Origin: Nanobdellota archaeon
GTDB lineage: Archaea > Nanobdellota > Nanobdellia > Woesearchaeales > SM23-78
Direction: 5' to 3'
NCBI GenBank assembly: GCA_018819305.1
Contig: JAHJQO010000013.1
Coordinates: forward strand, 1-35,142
Length of the DNA: 35,142 nt
In this document: in pieces, positions 13,427-34,297 of the stretch
How positions within the stretch are numbered: the stretch's first letter is position 1
How the letters are laid out: each line of letters starts with the position of its first letter
Made by a program: the position numbers and the translations under genes
The notes under the pieces: generated by a model
Told to the model about the DNA's origin: nothing
Database searches by the model: none
The model's input: the letters and a program-made list of their open reading frames with translations, nothing else

Positions 13427-15001
13427 TTATTTACTTTTTTCTTTCTTTTTCTTATCATACTTCTTCAAAGAAGTCTGCCCCTTTCTAGTTCCTTTTTTTA
13501 CAACAACTTTTTCTTCTCTTAAGTCCTGGCCGACTTGTTTTTTTATTGAAAGAGAAGTTGCTCTTCCTATCAATTGGCTTAATTGTGTGAAATCTACGTT
13601 TTTCACATCTTCAATTGTTTTTATTTTGTTGTTGAAAAGTTTTCTTGCTCTTGTTCTTCCAACAGATTTTAGTTTCAGCAGAGGAAGCAGTTCTTCTTTC
13701 GCACCATACTTAAGCCTTAGTCTTATTTTTGCTAACTCTGAAATCAATCCATGCAATTTTATCAGCCTGCTTAACTCTTGCGAAGCATATATCAACCAAT
13801 CTGCTCTTTCAAGCTTTGCCCTGCTCTCGCCAGGCCTTACATTAAATTCTTCAAGAAGAATTTCATCGTCTTTTTCATTAATCCATTCCTGAAAAAACAA
13901 AGCTGTTTTTATGCTTTTGATGTATTCCTCGTATTCTGGCTCAAACATGCTTGGTTCTAAGCTCAAGATTGATGTTTCATATTGCGCAGCCTTGTTCTCG
14001 ACAAGTTCATATTCACGCACTCTGACATTCAAGAGCGGCCGCAACTCCAAGGTGTAAGAAACCATTTGCAAAAATGATATGTCTCTGAGCAATTTGTCTT
14101 TTGCTCTTTTCAAACAAGTAATTAGATAATGTGCTGTGTAAGGGTCAAGATAGAGCTGGCTTACTCTGGCTCCAAGAAGAGTGGCTTCTAATTTATCAAT
14201 CTTAATAGATATGAACTCCCATTCTGCTAACTTATTTAAAATTCTATCAATAATCTCACTTAATTTCTGAATATCCTTGAACTGATGAGCATAAAATGTT
14301 TTTTTAAAAAAATCCATTAATGTTTTTTTTGAATTTGCAAAATCAGTGGCAATAAGGCTTAGAACATAAGTTCTTAAAATAGGTTCAACAGCCAGTTTGC
14401 TGAGAATCTCTTCTGTTTCTCCTTCAATATAATTATCAATAATATTTTCTTTCTCACTTTCTGATTGTGCAATGCAAATTGCTTCTCCAAAAGTATCATT
14501 AAAATCAGGCCTGCCTGCTCTGCCGCAAAACTGTTCGAACTCAAGCACAGGAATCCATGTCATTCCGCGAGGACCAGAAAAACGTTTAAGATCACGAATA
14601 ATAACTCTAAAGGCTGGCAAATTTATTCCTAGCGCAAGACTTGGAGTGCTACAAATAATCTTTATCATTCCATTTCTAAAATTATCCTCAACTAATTCTC
14701 TTTGCTGTGAATGCAGGCCTGCATGATGAAAAGCAACACCATGTCTGAAACATAAAGCAAGTCTCTGGCATTGTTTTGTTGGCTTGTCAAGAGTTTTTAA
14801 TGCTTTCTGGCTTAATTCTTCAAGCTTTTGTTTTTCTTTTTCAGCAGGCTTAATCTTTTTGCTAATTCTCTCTGCTTCTGCTTCTGCACTGTTCTTAGTG
14901 TTAACAAAAACAAGAGCCTGCTTGTCTTTCTCAAGTGTATCCAAACATATATTCAGAACATTATTATCATACAAATGTTTGATTTGGGTTGTTTTTTGCA
15001 T
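13427..15001 (-). CDS. Hel308/Ski2-like helicase, C-terminal half only (RecA2, winged helix, ratchet, HhH)
   Basis: 'ALVFVNTKNSAEAEA', 'AFHHAGLHSQQRELVEDNFRNG', 'CSTPSLALGINLPAFRVIIRD', 'EQFCGRAGRP', C-terminal 'LKSVGRTRARKLFNNKIKTIEDV'. No Walker A or DEAD box. ATG 15001 preceded by GGTGGG. Confidence 0.85.
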   Translation of the reverse strand: MQKTTQIKHLYDNNVLNICLDTLEKDKQALVFVNTKNSAEAEAERISKKIKPAEKEKQKLEELSQKALKTLDKPTKQCQRLALCFRHGVAFHHAGLHSQQRELVEDNFRNGMIKIICSTPSLALGINLPAFRVIIRDLKRFSGPRGMTWIPVLEFEQFCGRAGRPDFNDTFGEAICIAQSESEKENIIDNYIEGETEEILSKLAVEPILRTYVLSLIATDFANSKKTLMDFFKKTFYAHQFKDIQKLSEIIDRILNKLAEWEFISIKIDKLEATLLGARVSQLYLDPYTAHYLITCLKRAKDKLLRDISFLQMVSYTLELRPLLNVRVREYELVENKAAQYETSILSLEPSMFEPEYEEYIKSIKTALFFQEWINEKDDEILLEEFNVRPGESRAKLERADWLIYASQELSRLIKLHGLISELAKIRLRLKYGAKEELLPLLKLKSVGRTRARKLFNNKIKTIEDVKNVDFTQLSQLIGRATSLSIKKQVGQDLREEKVVVKKGTRKGQTSLKKYDKKKKEKSK

Positions 15002-15026: not shown

Positions 15027-15160
15027 TGGGCCCGCCGTGATTTGAACACGGGACCGCACGATGTCTGTACGCACGCTCAGGAACAAGTTCCTGGCGCGCT
15101 CGCCCAAAAAAGGGCTACGCGTATCAGTCGTGTGCTCTAGCCAGGCTAAGCCACAGGCCC
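15027..15160 (-). tRNA. tRNA-Ile(GAT) with a 59-nt intron at 37/38
   Basis: Acceptor GGGCCTG/CGGGCCC, D arm GCTTAGCCTGGCTAGAGC, anticodon stem CACGA/TCGTG, loop CTGATA^A, T arm CCGTG TTCAAAT CACGG. Intron 15063-15121. Confidence 0.9.
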
Positions 15161-15197: not shown

Positions 15198-15303
15198 TTG
15201 GGTTCGACCGCAGGCTAGAACCCAAGTAGTTTTCGCTAACCTCATCAAAAGCAAAGCTTTTGGGAATCAAAAACACGGTTTTTGTATTTTTCTAAAAAGG
15301 TTA
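15198..15303. repeat. Hairpin cluster between the two tRNA genes
   Basis: TTGGGTTC(15198-15205)/GAACCCAA(15218-15225). Closing stem TAACCT(15237-15242)/AGGTTA(15298-15303) encloses CAAAAGC-aaa-GCTTTTG and CAAAAAC-acg-GTTTTTG. Confidence 0.7.
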
Positions 15304-15305
15304 CA

Positions 15306-15437
15306 CGCCTCCACTCGGATTCGAACCGAGGACCTTGTGGTTTCTACGGTCGCTCAGAAATCAAAGATTTCTGGCGTGCTCGGACAAAAACGTCCTACGC
15401 ATAACAGCCACATGCTCCACCGCTAAGCTATGGAGGC
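15306..15437 (-). tRNA. tRNA-Asn(GTT) with a 60-nt intron at 37/38
   Basis: Acceptor GCCTCCA/TGGAGGC, D arm GCTTAGCGGTGGAGC, anticodon stem TGTGG/CCACA, loop CTGTTA^A, T arm CTCGG TTCGAAT CCGAG. Intron 15342-15401. Confidence 0.9.
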
Positions 15438-20405: not shown

Positions 20406-20652
20406 AAGGATGAATAACCAATAGAATCTTTTAAATGTTGTTATAAATCAGAGCTATTTCAGGAATCTTTCAATTTACTCCCAACCCCGATTCTTATAAA
20501 CAGCTGCAACCAAAGCACAGGCAGGTAGTACTTATCTCATAAAATTTACGAATATGAGAATGTTAATGACAAAAAAAGTTTAACAAATTTCTTTTCACGT
20601 TTTTTCTTCATAACCTTTATAAACCCTTTCTGACTATTGTATTTTGATTAAA

Positions 20653-23295
20653 ATGAGCGAAGATAAAAGAGAAAGCATGAAAGTAAGTGCAAAGGAAAAA
20701 CTCAAGCTCAAGCATTTTGTAAAGGAGCTTGCTCAACATAAAGGGCGCCATACAGAACTGGTGAGTGTTTATGTTCCTACAGGTTATGACATGAACAAGA
20801 TTATTAATCATTTGCAGCAGGAGCAGGGAACTGCAAGCAATATCAAAAGTGCAAGCACAAGAAAGAATGTTATTGATGCTCTGGAAAAAATGGTACAGCA
20901 TCTGAAGCTTTTTAAAAAGACACCGCCTAACGGAATGTGTGTTTTTGCTGGCAATGTTGCTGAACGTGAAGGACAGCAGGATTTTGAAGTATGGAGCATT
21001 GAACCTCCTGTTCCTATGAATCAGCGTCTGTACAGATGCGATAAAGAGTTTGTTCTTGAGCCTCTCAAAGAAATAGTTGAGCATGAAGAGACTTATGGTA
21101 TGGTTGTCCTGGACAGAAGAGATGCGACCATTGCATTGCTAAAGGGAAAAACAATTGTTCCTTTGCAAAAAACTCATTCAGAAGTTCCTGGAAAAATGCG
21201 TGCAGGAGGTCAATGCTGCGTACCTAATTCTTTAGTTCAATTATCTGATGGTTCTCTTCCTAAAATTGAGATTGTTCATAACCCCCACATTGTCAAAAGT
21301 ATGGTTATAAACAATCATTCAATTCGGAATTCGAACATAACAGACAAATGGAATGTAAAAAAGAGCCAAATTTACAAAGTTATCACAAAAAACCCACGTC
21401 TTGAGCTGGAAACTTCTAAAGACCATAAATTCTTTGTAACAACAGAAAAAGGGATTATTCAAAAAACAGCTGAGGAATTAAATTCTGAAGATTTATTGAT
21501 AATGCCTGAAAAGATTGATGTAAAAGGGAATGCTCAGAAATTGAACTCAAAAAGATATTATAATTCTTTCATAATAACAAATGAAGGTAAAACTTATTTA
21601 AAGGAAAAAAGGGTAAAAAAAGGTTTGCTTCAAAAAGAACTATCAAAAAAAATAGGTTTAACACAAACAGCTATCTCTTCGTATGAGTTAGGAAAAATAA
21701 ATCCTAAAAAAGATGAATTAGAGAAACTCTGTAGAGAACTTAACCTAAACTTCACAGGATTCTTAAAAAAATATACTAAGCCTTATCTTTATAAGGATAT
21801 TAAATTACCTGAAGTTTTATCAGCTGAATTTGCTCAGTTTATAGGATATTTAATAGGAGATGGATGTATAGAAAGAGACAGAATAAGTTTTTATGAACAA
21901 AATAAAGAAGTGGCCTTGGAACTTCAGAAAAAATTCAATAAATATCTTCAAACAACATCTTCATACAAGTTTAGAGAGGGTAAAAACTATCATCAAGTCA
22001 GGTTCACCAGCAGACCTTTGGTAAGATTAATTACTGAGGAATTTCCTGAAATCAAAAAAACCAAGAATAGTGATATCCCTAGAAAAATACTTTTATCAGA
22101 TAACAAAGTTCTTGCAGCTTTCTTAAAAGGATTGTTTGACGCTGAAGGATATGTTCATAAGAAAAGAGGGGTTGCTTTTTCTGTTAATAATAAGAACCTT
22201 GCTCAACAAGCACAACTCGTTCTTCTGAGATTCTCTATTCTAAGCTCATTACAAGAATATGATAATCGTGCAAATAAGTATTCTGATAATCCAAGATTCA
22301 CAGTTGACATAACCGAAAAGAAATCATTGGACTTATTTAATAAATACATTGGTTTCACTTCATGTGAAAAAAATAAAAAATTAGCAAATATACTAAGTCA
22401 GAAAACAGATAGAAGCTACAATAGGCAGATAATCGTTCCAGGATCAAAGATAAGGAAACTTATTGAAAAATCAGGTTATAATCTTCAATTATTCCCAAGA
22501 GTAAGCGGATTCTTTAATGACAAAAGAATGATGAGCAAAGAAATTTTTATGAATTCAATCCTTAAACATGTTAAAGACCCAAAACTTTATGCAAAATTAA
22601 AGGATATCTATGAGTGCCCGATTCTCCCTGTTAAAATAAGCAAAATAGAGAAATCAAAAAAAATTGTTGAAATGATAGATATTAGTGTGAAGAATCAAAA
22701 TTTCATAGCAAACGGCTTATTCGTGCATAATTCTGCACCCAGATTCGCCCGTCTCAGAGAGGGCGCTATTAAAGAGCATTACAAAAAAATTGCTGATTAT
22801 ATGAAAGACCAGTTTCTTTTCCTGAAAGATCTCAAAGGTATTTTAATAGGAGGTCCCAGTACAACAACTAATGATTTTCTGAACAAGGGTTATCTTACTA
22901 CTGATGTTAAGAACAAAATCATTGCAGTCAAGGATCTTAGCTACACAGGTGATTTCGGGCTTCAGGAACTTTTAGAAAGGTCCCAGGATGTGCTTGCAGA
23001 AGAAGAAGTTGCAAAAGAAAAAAATCTCATGCAGAAATTCTTTAATCTCTTATCAACAAAGCCTGACATGGCGAGTTATGGAAAAGAGCAGGTCAAGCAA
23101 TGCGTGATAATGGGTGCAGCAGAGACAGTGCTGATATCTGAAGCTTTAGGTGATGATTTGATTGATGAGTTTGATGAAGAAGCTCAAAAACTCGGCACAA
23201 ATGTCGAGGTTATATCCACAGAAACCAGAGAGGGAGTACAGTTAAAAGAAATGGGTGGAATTGCGGCTATTCTAAGATATCCTGTACATAGTTAG
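20653..23295 (+). CDS. prf1: peptide chain release factor aRF1 interrupted by an intein
   Basis: Exteins 'SVYVPTGYDMNKIINHLQQEQGTASNIKSASTRKNVIDAL', '...GKMRAGGQ' and 'SAPRFARLREGAIKEHY...IGGPSTTTNDFL'; start taken at ATG 20653 (track begins at TTG 20644). Confidence 0.95.
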   Translation: MSEDKRESMKVSAKEKLKLKHFVKELAQHKGRHTELVSVYVPTGYDMNKIINHLQQEQGTASNIKSASTRKNVIDALEKMVQHLKLFKKTPPNGMCVFAGNVAEREGQQDFEVWSIEPPVPMNQRLYRCDKEFVLEPLKEIVEHEETYGMVVLDRRDATIALLKGKTIVPLQKTHSEVPGKMRAGGQCCVPNSLVQLSDGSLPKIEIVHNPHIVKSMVINNHSIRNSNITDKWNVKKSQIYKVITKNPRLELETSKDHKFFVTTEKGIIQKTAEELNSEDLLIMPEKIDVKGNAQKLNSKRYYNSFIITNEGKTYLKEKRVKKGLLQKELSKKIGLTQTAISSYELGKINPKKDELEKLCRELNLNFTGFLKKYTKPYLYKDIKLPEVLSAEFAQFIGYLIGDGCIERDRISFYEQNKEVALELQKKFNKYLQTTSSYKFREGKNYHQVRFTSRPLVRLITEEFPEIKKTKNSDIPRKILLSDNKVLAAFLKGLFDAEGYVHKKRGVAFSVNNKNLAQQAQLVLLRFSILSSLQEYDNRANKYSDNPRFTVDITEKKSLDLFNKYIGFTSCEKNKKLANILSQKTDRSYNRQIIVPGSKIRKLIEKSGYNLQLFPRVSGFFNDKRMMSKEIFMNSILKHVKDPKLYAKLKDIYECPILPVKISKIEKSKKIVEMIDISVKNQNFIANGLFVHNSAPRFARLREGAIKEHYKKIADYMKDQFLFLKDLKGILIGGPSTTTNDFLNKGYLTTDVKNKIIAVKDLSYTGDFGLQELLERSQDVLAEEEVAKEKNLMQKFFNLLSTKPDMASYGKEQVKQCVIMGAAETVLISEALGDDLIDEFDEEAQKLGTNVEVISTETREGVQLKEMGGIAAILRYPVHS
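21214..22731 (+). mobile_element. 506-aa intein with HTH insert and LAGLIDADG homing endonuclease, in aRF1
   Basis: Block A 'CCVPNSLVQLSDG', block B 'TSKDHKFFV', LAGLIDADG motifs 'FIGYLIGDGCI' and 'FLKGLFDAEGYV', block F/G 'NFIANGLFVHN' then Ser+1. XRE-like HTH 'LLQKELSKKIGLTQTAISSYELGK' at about 21592-21750. Confidence 0.93.
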
Positions 23296-31561: not shown

Positions 31562-33010
31562 TTATTCATGCCTTATTCTCTTGAGCAAATCCTTGATTTG
31601 CCTGGCTTCTTGATTGTAAGATTCATGATTCTCATTCAAAGCATGCTCTTCCATACGCTCAACAAATTCTTTTATCTTCAGAACTTCTTCCAAAAGATGG
31701 ACTTCTTTATCAACTTCATCTTGTACAGTTTCTTCATCAGATGTCGTCTGCTCTGCAGAGGGCTCAGAAACTTCAGTTTCTGTTGTTTTTTCTTTTTCTT
31801 GCTCAATCTCATCAAGAAACTCAAGGTCTTTTTTCAAGTTCTCATCAATTTCTTCTTGAAGCTCTTCTTTTTCTTCTTTTGCTGAGGTTTCCTGCATAAT
31901 TACTTTTTTTGCTTCTTCATTAGAAATAATCTCAGGCATTTCAAATTTCTGCTCTTGTTCCTGGCCTGCTATTGTCTCAAGCTTATGCTCCATTGTCTTC
32001 TTTCCACTATCATCAACAGTCAATTTAATTTCTTCTTTTTCATCAGTCACTCTTTTTGGCTCGCCTGTAATTCTATTTGCTATGAATACATAAGTATAAT
32101 CATCTCTCACACTAAGATAAAGCTTTAAATCAGTTCCGACAAAACTCTTTGCTCTTTTTGAAATTCTGGCAACCTCATAAATCTGCTTGTCATCAAGTTT
32201 CTGCCGAGAACCAGATTCTTTTAATTCATTTCTTACGATTTCATCAGTTTCAGGATTCCTCACAAGGCTATATTCCTGGACATTAACATCTGCTTTGTTA
32301 ATAATCAGACTGTCATGGTCTAATTCATGATAATCTTTGCCTAAAATTTGTTTATCCTGAGAATAATCCTGATAACCAAAAAAACTTTGCACAACAATTG
32401 TGCTCTCATCAATATTTGAACAGGAGTATGAAACAGCAGACTGTTTTATCTTCTTCATCTTCTGAATAATTATTCCCATTCCAAAGTCACCAGAAATATC
32501 TATTTTCTTTCTATACCCAATTGATTCTGGTGAATAAACAGAAGCCCAAGAAAGCTTAATTGCAGTTATTAACACTTCTTTGCCTTTAATATTCTGCATA
32601 AATCCTTCTGTATCATCTGTTGGTAAAAGATAAGAAGGGCTTCTAAAAACACTGACAAAAGGAGGATTCCAATCTGATACAATATTGCTTGCAGTGGCTC
32701 CAGTATCTATGCTTAATGATTCATAAGCCTCGCTTAGTTCTTCTTCAAATTCTTTAGGAAGTTTAGCTTCATTAAATAGCTTCAGAATCTCTTTGTATGC
32801 ATCTGCAGCTTTTGTATTGTGAAAAATCTTTTCAAGCTTGACCTTTAACCCGTTTTCAGCTAGAAAATCTTCAAAAGCATTGTTATTTATAATAAAAGAT
32901 AGAGGAATATTAATTTTTTTTTCCCTGAGCACAGCAAGGTCAACTGCTCGAAACCCGACGCTGTCTAAGTCAGAACGCTTCACATTGTTTAGAGTTATTA
33001 TATACCTCAC
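31562..33010 (-). CDS. stand-alone PPDK/PEP-synthase N-terminal-like domain fused to an acidic coiled-coil tail
   Basis: 'VSVFRSPSYLLPTDDTEGFMQNIKG...AIKLSWASVYSPESIGYRKKIDI...MGIIIQKM' matches the PPDK_N pattern; Glu-rich C-terminus; no phosphohistidine or PEP-binding domains. Confidence 0.7.
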   Translation of the reverse strand: MRYIITLNNVKRSDLDSVGFRAVDLAVLREKKINIPLSFIINNNAFEDFLAENGLKVKLEKIFHNTKAADAYKEILKLFNEAKLPKEFEEELSEAYESLSIDTGATASNIVSDWNPPFVSVFRSPSYLLPTDDTEGFMQNIKGKEVLITAIKLSWASVYSPESIGYRKKIDISGDFGMGIIIQKMKKIKQSAVSYSCSNIDESTIVVQSFFGYQDYSQDKQILGKDYHELDHDSLIINKADVNVQEYSLVRNPETDEIVRNELKESGSRQKLDDKQIYEVARISKRAKSFVGTDLKLYLSVRDDYTYVFIANRITGEPKRVTDEKEEIKLTVDDSGKKTMEHKLETIAGQEQEQKFEMPEIISNEEAKKVIMQETSAKEEKEELQEEIDENLKKDLEFLDEIEQEKEKTTETEVSEPSAEQTTSDEETVQDEVDKEVHLLEEVLKIKEFVERMEEHALNENHESYNQEARQIKDLLKRIRHE

Positions 33011-33081
33011 TTCACACTCACCACACTATCTTTAAGACGGGTGGATGCAGGGTGATATTTAAATTCTTCGAAGTATTCAAG

Positions 33082-33264
33082 AAACTTTTTGCCCGCTCAC
33101 TACGTTCGCTCACAAAAGTTTGCAAAATGCAAGCGGTTCCTAGCACATGCTCAGAAGCCATGCTTCTGGCACAACAAAATTAAAAATTTTGAGTGCCAAA
33201 AAAACAAAAGTTTTTTTGAGCATCACAAAAACCAAAGGTTTTTGCTGAAAAAAGTGCCGGAACC
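33082..33264. repeat. Hairpin array with four-way junction, in the pfkB 3' region
   Basis: AAACTTTT/AAAAGTTT; closing stem GGTTCC-TA-GCAC (33135-33146)/GTGC-C-GGAACC (33254-33264); contiguous junction 33147-33223; extra hairpin CAAAAACC-aaa-GGTTTTTG 33226-33244. Confidence 0.88.
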
Positions 33265-33313
33265 CCTTATAAGAAACTAAGCAAAATAAATAAGCAAATT
33301 TCACATGTCTTGG

Positions 33314-34297
33314 TTAAGCCTTTCTCTTCTCAATTTTTCTCTTGTCTTTTTTCACAGCTTCAAACAGGCTCTTGCGATGAAGCAAAAGGTTCTGGGCTCC
33401 ATGATGGCAGATAACAGATTCTGCATTGATTATTGCCATTTTCAGGCAGAAGTCAAAAGGTTTTTTCAACATCAGGCCTGCAACCAGAGTTGATGCAAAA
33501 GAATCTCCTGCTCCTGTTGATTCAACAATCTGAAGATTCTTGTGAGGCAGAATTTTGTAAAAATAACCATCTTTGTAAGCCACGACACCGTTTTTGCTGT
33601 CTGTTATTGCAATTATTTGAGGACCATAAACCATTAATTTCATAATATTAACTTCACGCGTGCTGTTGCCCACAAGAGATTCTGCTTCCTCTTTATTTAG
33701 CACAAGCACATCAGCATATCGAATCAGATTAATTGCTTCTTTAGGATAAGAATCCAACATAGTAGCAGAAGGATTTAAAGCAATCTTTATTTTGTTTTTC
33801 CACGCATGTTCTGCTATTTTCAGCATTGTATGCAGGCTCTGGTCACGCATAGAAGTGAAGAAAAACCATTTGGTTTTTAGTTTTGACATAGTAAGTTCTG
33901 TAAATTTTAATTCACTGTTGCTTCCTCTGTAAGTCAGAATTGTCCTGTCATGTTCTACAGAATCAAGAATTATAGAAAAGCCGTTTTCTTTTCCTCTTGC
34001 ACCAAGAAAAGAAATTTTTTCTTTTTTCAGACCTTTCATGATAAGCTCACTGTTAGGATCCCTGCCTGTCTTTCCAATGTAGCCTGTTTTCAGTCCAATG
34101 CGAGAAAAAGAGACTGCAGCATTAAATCCAGAGCCTCCTAGATTTTGCATGTGCTTATTTATAAGTATCTTTGCACCTACAGGATAAGAAATAAGCTCAG
34201 TCGTATCATTTTTGGAATGAATATCTATGACTTGAGACTGGTCTGTATGAACAAATAAATCAACCATGTTGCTTCCAAAGGTAATGACATCGTACAT
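33314..34297 (-). CDS. PfkB-family carbohydrate kinase
   Basis: 'NLGGSGFNAAVSFSRIGLKTGYIGKTGRD' and 'IVESTGAGDSFASTLVAGLM'. Confidence 0.92.
   Translation of the reverse strand: MYDVITFGSNMVDLFVHTDQSQVIDIHSKNDTTELISYPVGAKILINKHMQNLGGSGFNAAVSFSRIGLKTGYIGKTGRDPNSELIMKGLKKEKISFLGARGKENGFSIILDSVEHDRTILTYRGSNSELKFTELTMSKLKTKWFFFTSMRDQSLHTMLKIAEHAWKNKIKIALNPSATMLDSYPKEAINLIRYADVLVLNKEEAESLVGNSTREVNIMKLMVYGPQIIAITDSKNGVVAYKDGYFYKILPHKNLQIVESTGAGDSFASTLVAGLMLKKPFDFCLKMAIINAESVICHHGAQNLLLHRKSLFEAVKKDKRKIEKRKA

Follow-up and report, generated by a model that had tools for sequence, protein, structure and literature searches.

A hairpin cluster in a Nanobdellota archaeon belongs to an interspersed, apparently mobile repeat and lies within another repeat

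Introduction

Hairpin repeats of the REP type (REP/RAYT; BIME, REPIN) are largely extragenic, are tied to a Y1 transposase and carry a GTAG or CGTC tag beside the palindrome. In-frame selfish palindromes in essential proteins are already known from Rickettsia and Wolbachia, and have been reported in one methanogen. Rickettsia palindromic elements (RPE; Ogata et al. 2000, 2002) are 105 to 146 bp long with 12-bp terminal inverted repeats (PMC2229807). They occur between genes and in-frame in conserved ORFs, and the genes for RNase P RNA and tmRNA can also carry them (PMC2229807, PMC10969869). In Methanocaldococcus jannaschii, palindromic repeats within coding sequence (Suyama et al. 2005) are cited in PMC2229807 and PMC2996958. 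Mitochondrial double-hairpin elements of Allomyces, and related repetitive hairpin elements, are cited in PMC2800124 and PMC4478555; from the lack of duplications, an RNA intermediate has been proposed for the Allomyces elements (PMC2800124). The bulge-helix-bulge introns of archaeal tRNA genes, and the transposition of tRNA introns in the Thermoproteales, are covered by Fujishima (2010), cited in PMC3978253.

The window analysed here is the whole 35,142-nt stretch of contig JAHJQO010000013.1 from a Nanobdellota archaeon. Between a pfkB-family kinase gene and a gene for a PPDK_N-domain protein it contains a tight cluster of hairpins. We consider it probable (roughly 0.8) that this cluster holds a short non-coding mobile hairpin element, termed family B, arranged as an inverted tandem in the loop of a second hairpin repeat, termed family A.

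Experimental procedures

The genome containing the window comprised 1.53 Mb in 57 contigs, with a listed completeness of 82%. A covariance model, R1, was built from an alignment of seven copies from this genome and was used to search the genome itself, 60 genomes of relatives and a sample of 285 genomes of the phylum. Folding energies were calculated with RNA and DNA parameters and compared with those of dinucleotide shuffles. Genomes, contigs and loci are designated G, C and L, respectively.

Results

All of the arms that an earlier note had named were found in place (Table 1), and its claim that such packing is unlikely by chance held on both strands, as RNA or as DNA, with z-scores of about -6 to -9. 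For 161 nt folded as RNA, z was -6.64 (+ strand) and -5.94 (- strand); with DNA parameters the values were -8.75 and -6.71, respectively. The exact 130-nt interval gave -6.85, and the 77-nt junction as DNA gave -6.55. No shuffle folded as well as the native cluster in any run. The perfectly packed junction, described as containing no unpaired base, was the minimum-energy fold with DNA parameters and essentially also that of the minus-strand RNA. The plus-strand RNA, however, favoured another register, in which GTGC/GCAT lengthens hp3 past a bulged A. Alternative registers for the GTGC/GCAC tags had been anticipated, and this local one is the register backed by covariation across copies. The only Rfam matches in the whole window were two tRNAs near 15 kb, with none at the hairpin cluster, and a phage collection gave no match. 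Elsewhere in the window, an 883-aa ORF (20644-23295, + strand) resembles the archaeal release factor aRF1 with an intein (GGQCCVPNSLVQL ... GLFVHNSAPRFARLREG).

Table 1. Positions of the hairpin cluster, its component repeats and neighbouring features in the window
Feature	Position	Strand	Basis
PPDK_N (ATP-binding) domain protein, downstream neighbour	31562-33010	-	PF01326, E 3.2e-26; synteny with pfkB kept in congeners
Promoter-like GAAGAATTTAAATAT of downstream gene	33055-33069	-	Kept in congeners; by-eye alignment of L246 with L247, L248 and L250
Left copy of AAGAAACT, an 8-bp direct repeat on either side of family A	33079-33086	+	Possible target duplication, unproven
Family A, approximate extent	33087-33270	+	Outer limits inferred; family A missing from this site in congeners
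Family-A right hairpin, 5' arm GGTTCC-TA-GCAC	33135-33146	+	Sequence; own-genome copies
Whole family-B array, 101 nt, in family-A hairpin loop	33147-33247	+	Comparison with family-A copies
Second family-B core, opposite orientation, hp2 in common	33147-33195	-	R1, 34.3 bits, E 3.7e-8
Tag ATGCT and partner AGCAT	33147-33151; 33219-33223		Sequence
hp1; hp2; hp3; hp4	33152-33168; 33175-33191; 33197-33218; 33226-33244		Sequence
Family-B core, CAA-hp2-A-GTGC-hp3-A-GCAT	33172-33223	+	R1, 69.6 bits, E 7.9e-19 (not an independent match, the copy being one of R1's seven training sequences); covariation
Accessory hairpin hp4 (CAAAAACC-AAA-GGTTTTTG, 33226-33244) plus CTG, array end	33224-33247	+	Sequence; folds
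Family-A right hairpin, 3' arm GTGC-C-GGAACC	33254-33264	+	Sequence; own-genome copies
8-bp direct repeat AAGAAACT, right copy	33271-33278	+	
pfkB-family kinase, upstream neighbour	33314-34297	-	PF00294, E 8.1e-33
tRNA read as Ile (GAT), ~60-nt anticodon-loop insert	15027-15160	-	RF00005, 47.6 bits, 60-nt insert; identity from reading of the sequence
Weaker family-B copy inside CTAACCT/AGGTTA hairpin between tRNA-Asn and tRNA-Ile	15243-15287	+	R1, 31.7 bits, E 2.3e-7
tRNA read as Asn (GTT), ~60-nt anticodon-loop insert	15306-15437	-	RF00005, 54.5 bits, 61-nt insert; identity from reading of the sequence

When the genome was searched at the DNA level, the locus split into two separate modules. 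Module A corresponds to window positions ~33074-33143 and resumes at 33254-33264. It comprises a left hairpin (AAACTTTT/AAAAGTTT), a linker (GCAAAATGCAAGC) and a right hairpin that is broken by the family-B array. Copies were recovered by blastn at C49:9241, C4:1993, C29:819 and C46:27904. Elsewhere module A is a simple hairpin, such as GATTCC-TA-GTGC-AAAAAA-GCAC-C-GGAATC, and at L009, L012, L014 and L019 its loop consists of AAAAAA or AAAAAC only. The second module, B (33147-33247), was found again elsewhere as arrays of hairpins. In the window, the array is placed exactly between GCAC (33143-33146) and an A-type AAAAAA loop (33248-33253). Family B was also found inside the family-A linker (L038, L164, L168, L169). 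Direct repeats suggestive of a family-A target duplication were seen only in the window (8 bp) and at L082 (9 bp), not at other copies. The L082 copy adjoins a tRNA gene, and its 9-bp repeat, AAGCCTCTG, is part of the tRNA end.

The family-B unit is 46 to 52 nt long and consists of two adjacent hairpins, CAA-[hp2]-A-GYGC-[hp3]-A-GCRY, with the tags GYGC and GAGCAY. From 102 distinct R1 matches the structure was resolved as hp2, an unpaired base, and GYGC-C[hp3]G-A-GCRY with a bulged A. Standard pairing was present in 97.3% of 1712 pair cells, in an alignment fitted to R1 that favours the two stems of the model, with the tag helix lying outside it. Changes on both sides were counted in 203 cells and affected 16 of the 17 pairs. 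None of 500 shuffles reached the observed value, and sliding the partner strand reduced pairing to 41-58%. The tag helix itself covaries (GTGC/GCAC, GTCC/GGAT, CTGC/GCAG, GCGC/GCGT). In the window, R1 matches both strands, and the copy is made up of two inverted units with the middle hairpin in common, the minus-strand core contributing hp1 and the ATGCT/GGCAC tags. ATGCT is complementary to AGCAT, and GGCAC to GTGCC, because two opposite units share one hairpin; this accounts for the 'perfect' junction. The palindromic long form was present in 6 of 90 copies (for example L028, L032, L157, L163 and L210).

The earlier note had proposed a Holliday-like DNA cruciform or a structured RNA. Structure was confirmed, and homologous copies keep their complementary arms, so it is not refuted on that ground; what did not stand is the singularity of the feature, since at this locus two interspersed repeats are inserted one within the other. 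An ordinary cruciform, or a chance cluster of palindromes at a single locus, would agree with the high stability as DNA (z -8.75), yet dozens of copies with compensatory changes exist elsewhere. The own-genome search, the R1 matches and the covariation refute this explanation, and its probability is negligible.

Within its own genome R1 had 92 matches with E-values up to 5, and the scores of 25 of these exceeded 45 bits. Among relatives, 42 of 60 genomes matched at E ≤ 0.1, with the highest counts in G002 (69), G006 (61) and G047 (35). At E ≤ 1e-6, 40 of the 285 genomes in the phylum sample matched, 39 from the same order and one from the same class; order-level matches below ~40 bits are AT-rich, and some of these may be due to chance. 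The genes for S6e, EndA, eIF2gamma and ELP3 mark the genome of the window as archaeal, probably that of a DPANN archaeon of the Woesearchaeales type. The order contains many families, with genomes of 0.6 to 2.1 Mb, and the distribution of family B across it is patchy. Copies lie at contig ends in G006 (C6, C7, C21), G047 (C8) and G038 (C5, C89). The repeats probably break these assemblies, and the copy numbers are therefore minimum values.

Mobilisation by an HUH (Y1) transposase, with hairpins and tetranucleotide tags of a REP-like element recognised as ssDNA, would suit the conserved tags (GTGC, GAGC) and the lack of a clear target duplication. Like REP/RAYT sequences, family B consists of small, interspersed, high-copy hairpins with conserved tags. 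The genome of the window contains a single Y1_Tnp gene (G000:C57:28136-28516, L081), the frame of which is broken by a TGA. Against this, Y1_Tnp was absent from the copy-rich genomes G006, G004, G047 and G038, and its presence (22 of 60 genomes) was not associated with copy number (Mann-Whitney p = 0.60), so that a Y1 transposase as current driver is largely refuted. Unlike REP, family B is commonly intragenic, and its tags are not GTAG or CGTC. We regard this explanation as very unlikely.

Filled and empty sites were compared directly. In ELP3, a 51-nt insert is missing from all six of six congeners, and the position is conserved. The pfkB and PPDK_N genes are adjacent in G002, G004, G005 and G006. 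The window insert, which lies upstream of the promoter-like GAAGAATTTAAATAT, is absent from this intergenic site in G002, G004 and G005, and the distance from the pfkB stop codon to GAAGAATTTAAATAT is ~20 nt in G002 versus ~245 nt in the window. Since the orthologous locus lacks the element in these three congeners, the element does not serve a conserved function of that locus. In G006 the site is occupied by an unrelated hairpin repeat instead. The family-A linker is without family B at L082 and contains it at L164 and L168 (for L168, the junction was assigned by eye). The D-loop hairpin of tRNA-Gln lacks the nested family-B copy that is present in tRNA-Glu(CTC). No target duplication longer than 1-2 nt was seen at the family-B junctions examined. 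Two tests against permuted flanks gave no significant preference for insertion into hairpin loops; single cases that fit loop insertion are the window, L025, L044 and tRNA-Glu. Family B is dispersed over many non-homologous sites, its structure is under selection or maintained by templated copying, and it has been gained (or lost) at defined sites. Movement of a copy was never observed.

Fourteen copies in this genome lie within ORFs, across eight identified protein families and one Lys-rich ORF. The in-frame hosts are eIF2gamma, GrpE, an FKBP-type isomerase, S3, S6e, EndA, ELP3, an AAA ATPase and the Lys-rich ORF. In G002, one copy each was found in an FtsY-like and a prefoldin-like protein (both names assigned by inspecting the sequence). 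The in-ORF copies, 16 of 16, were on the coding strand and in a single frame, although two to five frames were stop-free in each; the ELP3 copy has a shifted 5' end. The in-frame copies would encode peptides of the PSKAKPLSAKGKPLSI type. The gene for EndA, the tRNA-splicing endonuclease, contains three in-frame copies in an N-terminal extension (L029). In the GrpE gene (L033, 804-936), the element sits within a tandem 87-nt duplication. Copies in eIF2gamma, EndA and FKBP are near-identical and have flanks in common; the in-frame copies are therefore not fully independent, and recombination between ORFs may account for the spread of some.

Copies in 5' leaders precede rpS2, EF-1beta, a histone-like gene (identified by reading) and FKBP in G002; another precedes an N-terminally extended nucleotidyltransferase-like ORF that is conserved in G002 and G003. 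At L028, L031, L158, L159, L174 and L207, the loop of the last hairpin contains a Shine-Dalgarno sequence and the 3' end of that hairpin adjoins the start codon. The L159 and L207 leaders also contain a conserved short upstream ORF. At L156 (G002 C40, ~13700-13900), the element is flanked by a ~29-nt direct duplication of the start of the next gene (GGTAAATAACAAAAACACAGTTTTTGA). Between co-directional genes, 22 intergenic copies were sense and 11 antisense; the family-B core of the window is antisense to both neighbouring genes. Family B could be read as a cis-regulatory or processing RNA, its leader and trailer hairpins acting in translation control, stability or termination on genes with a common regulatory protein. 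The Shine-Dalgarno loops, the mild sense bias and the strongly conserved structure speak for this reading, whereas the unit also occurs antisense (as in the window), in-frame in ORFs, in tRNA genes and within other repeats, and is missing from orthologous sites. It is accordingly rated as quite unlikely. The sense lean need not be expected of a neutral parasite. Some leader copies of the mobile element may nevertheless have been co-opted, because the hairpin presents a Shine-Dalgarno sequence immediately upstream of the start codon.

Genes for tRNA-Gln(CTG) and tRNA-Gln(TTG) contain hairpin inserts in the D-loop. In the tRNA-Glu(CTC) gene these D-loop hairpins recur and enclose a family-B unit, and the T-loop has an insert as well; tRNA-Glu(TTC) has no insert. 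A further family-B copy lies in tRNA-Gly(GCC). All of these tRNA identities were read from the sequences. The inserts of the window tRNA-Asn and tRNA-Ile genes have the same architecture as family B, hairpin-A-(GC-rich tag)-hairpin-A-tag. Among relatives, the Gln gene of G009 has no D-loop insert, that of G003 has a small one (14 nt), and some have D-, anticodon- and T-loop inserts together. D- and T-loop inserts are common in the order, sometimes three per gene (L041, L096, L047, L102, L103, L107), and further examples in relatives are L217, L224, L226, L229, L232 and L236. ARAGORN overlooked nearly all intron-bearing tRNAs, including both in the window. A crude scan for bulge-helix-bulge motifs found no convincing motif in the D-loop inserts, the strand geometry of the scan probably being reversed; by eye, the insert of the window tRNA-Ile fits a relaxed motif.

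These inserts bear on transposition at the RNA level by the tRNA-splicing machinery, in which excised hairpin RNAs would be joined into RNA loops and copied back to DNA. This route is suggested by the like architecture of tRNA inserts and dispersed copies, by the frequency of D-, T- and anticodon-loop inserts in the order, by the lack of a clear target duplication, and by a range of hosts that includes strongly expressed genes of translation and the gene of the splicing endonuclease. RNA intermediates were proposed for the Allomyces elements on the same ground (PMC2800124). On the other side, reverse transcriptase was not found in the copy-rich genomes G002 and G004, and its presence (19 of 60 genomes) was not significantly associated with copy number (Mann-Whitney p 0.14); the bulge-helix-bulge scan, of uncertain geometry, also gave the D-loop inserts no convincing motif. 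Copy-rich G004 has neither a Y1 transposase nor a reverse transcriptase. Transposition by this route is unlikely.

Discussion

Family B resembles RPE and their Wolbachia counterparts in being a short stem-loop found between genes, in-frame in one stop-free frame and in RNA genes, a likeness drawn from described features. The shared strand and frame of 16 of 16 in-ORF copies, the ELP3 site empty in six congeners, and the copies in tRNA-Glu(CTC) and tRNA-Gly(GCC) all belong to this pattern. It differs in that the core is 46-52 nt long, has two tagged hairpins and no terminal inverted repeat, and is archaeal and also found in tRNA genes; only the longer form seen in the window is palindromic overall. 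As size and terminal repeats do not agree, family B was not assigned to RPE, though it is RPE-like in behaviour. The M. jannaschii repeats, as described by the papers that cite them, are likewise archaeal, palindromic and in-frame in protein genes, in another lineage. The Allomyces elements are also patchily distributed two-hairpin mobile units without target duplication, with related hairpin elements inside genes; they are organellar, whereas family B resides on the chromosome of an archaeon and shows in-frame selection within many proteins. Of the features of classical MITEs, duplication at family-B junctions does not exceed 1-2 nt, and an 8-bp direct repeat surrounds the family-A copy of the window. 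Archaeal bulge-helix-bulge introns similarly occupy D-, anticodon and T-loops, but here related hairpin units are also present in proteins, leaders and intergenic DNA. In the open-access collection that was searched, outside which most subscription papers fall, no description of family B was found, and no report of such an element from DPANN-like archaea.

On the preferred reading, that of a mobile hairpin element, family A would be the older hairpin repeat, into the loop of which an inverted-tandem copy of family B was inserted. Family B would spread as a parasite and be tolerated where harm is small, namely between genes, in the introns and loops of tRNAs, within other repeats, and in protein segments that are disordered and rich in Lys, Ser and Pro. 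Within proteins, the survivors would be only those copies with a stop-free hydrophilic frame. Since no obvious or long target duplication was seen, a single-stranded hairpin intermediate (RNA or ssDNA) is probably the likeliest route.

A bolder proposal, which we hold to be rather improbable, is that one hairpin module reaches tRNA introns, ORFs, leaders and intergenic DNA through RNA-level cutting and joining by the tRNA splicing endonuclease and ligase, followed by copying into the genome. If true, archaeal tRNA introns and 'protein-coding palindromes' would be two faces of one mobile element.

Described here is an archaeal family, patchy within one diverse order of small-genome archaea, that occurs in tRNA genes, is nested in other hairpin repeats and has clean empty sites. 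How tiny elements without a protein of their own spread is a long-standing question, and the many copies, precise junctions and tRNA connection of family B make it testable. Family B may also be a source of new protein sequence, in the form of short, predicted disordered segments in eIF2gamma, S3, S6e, GrpE, EndA and FtsY.
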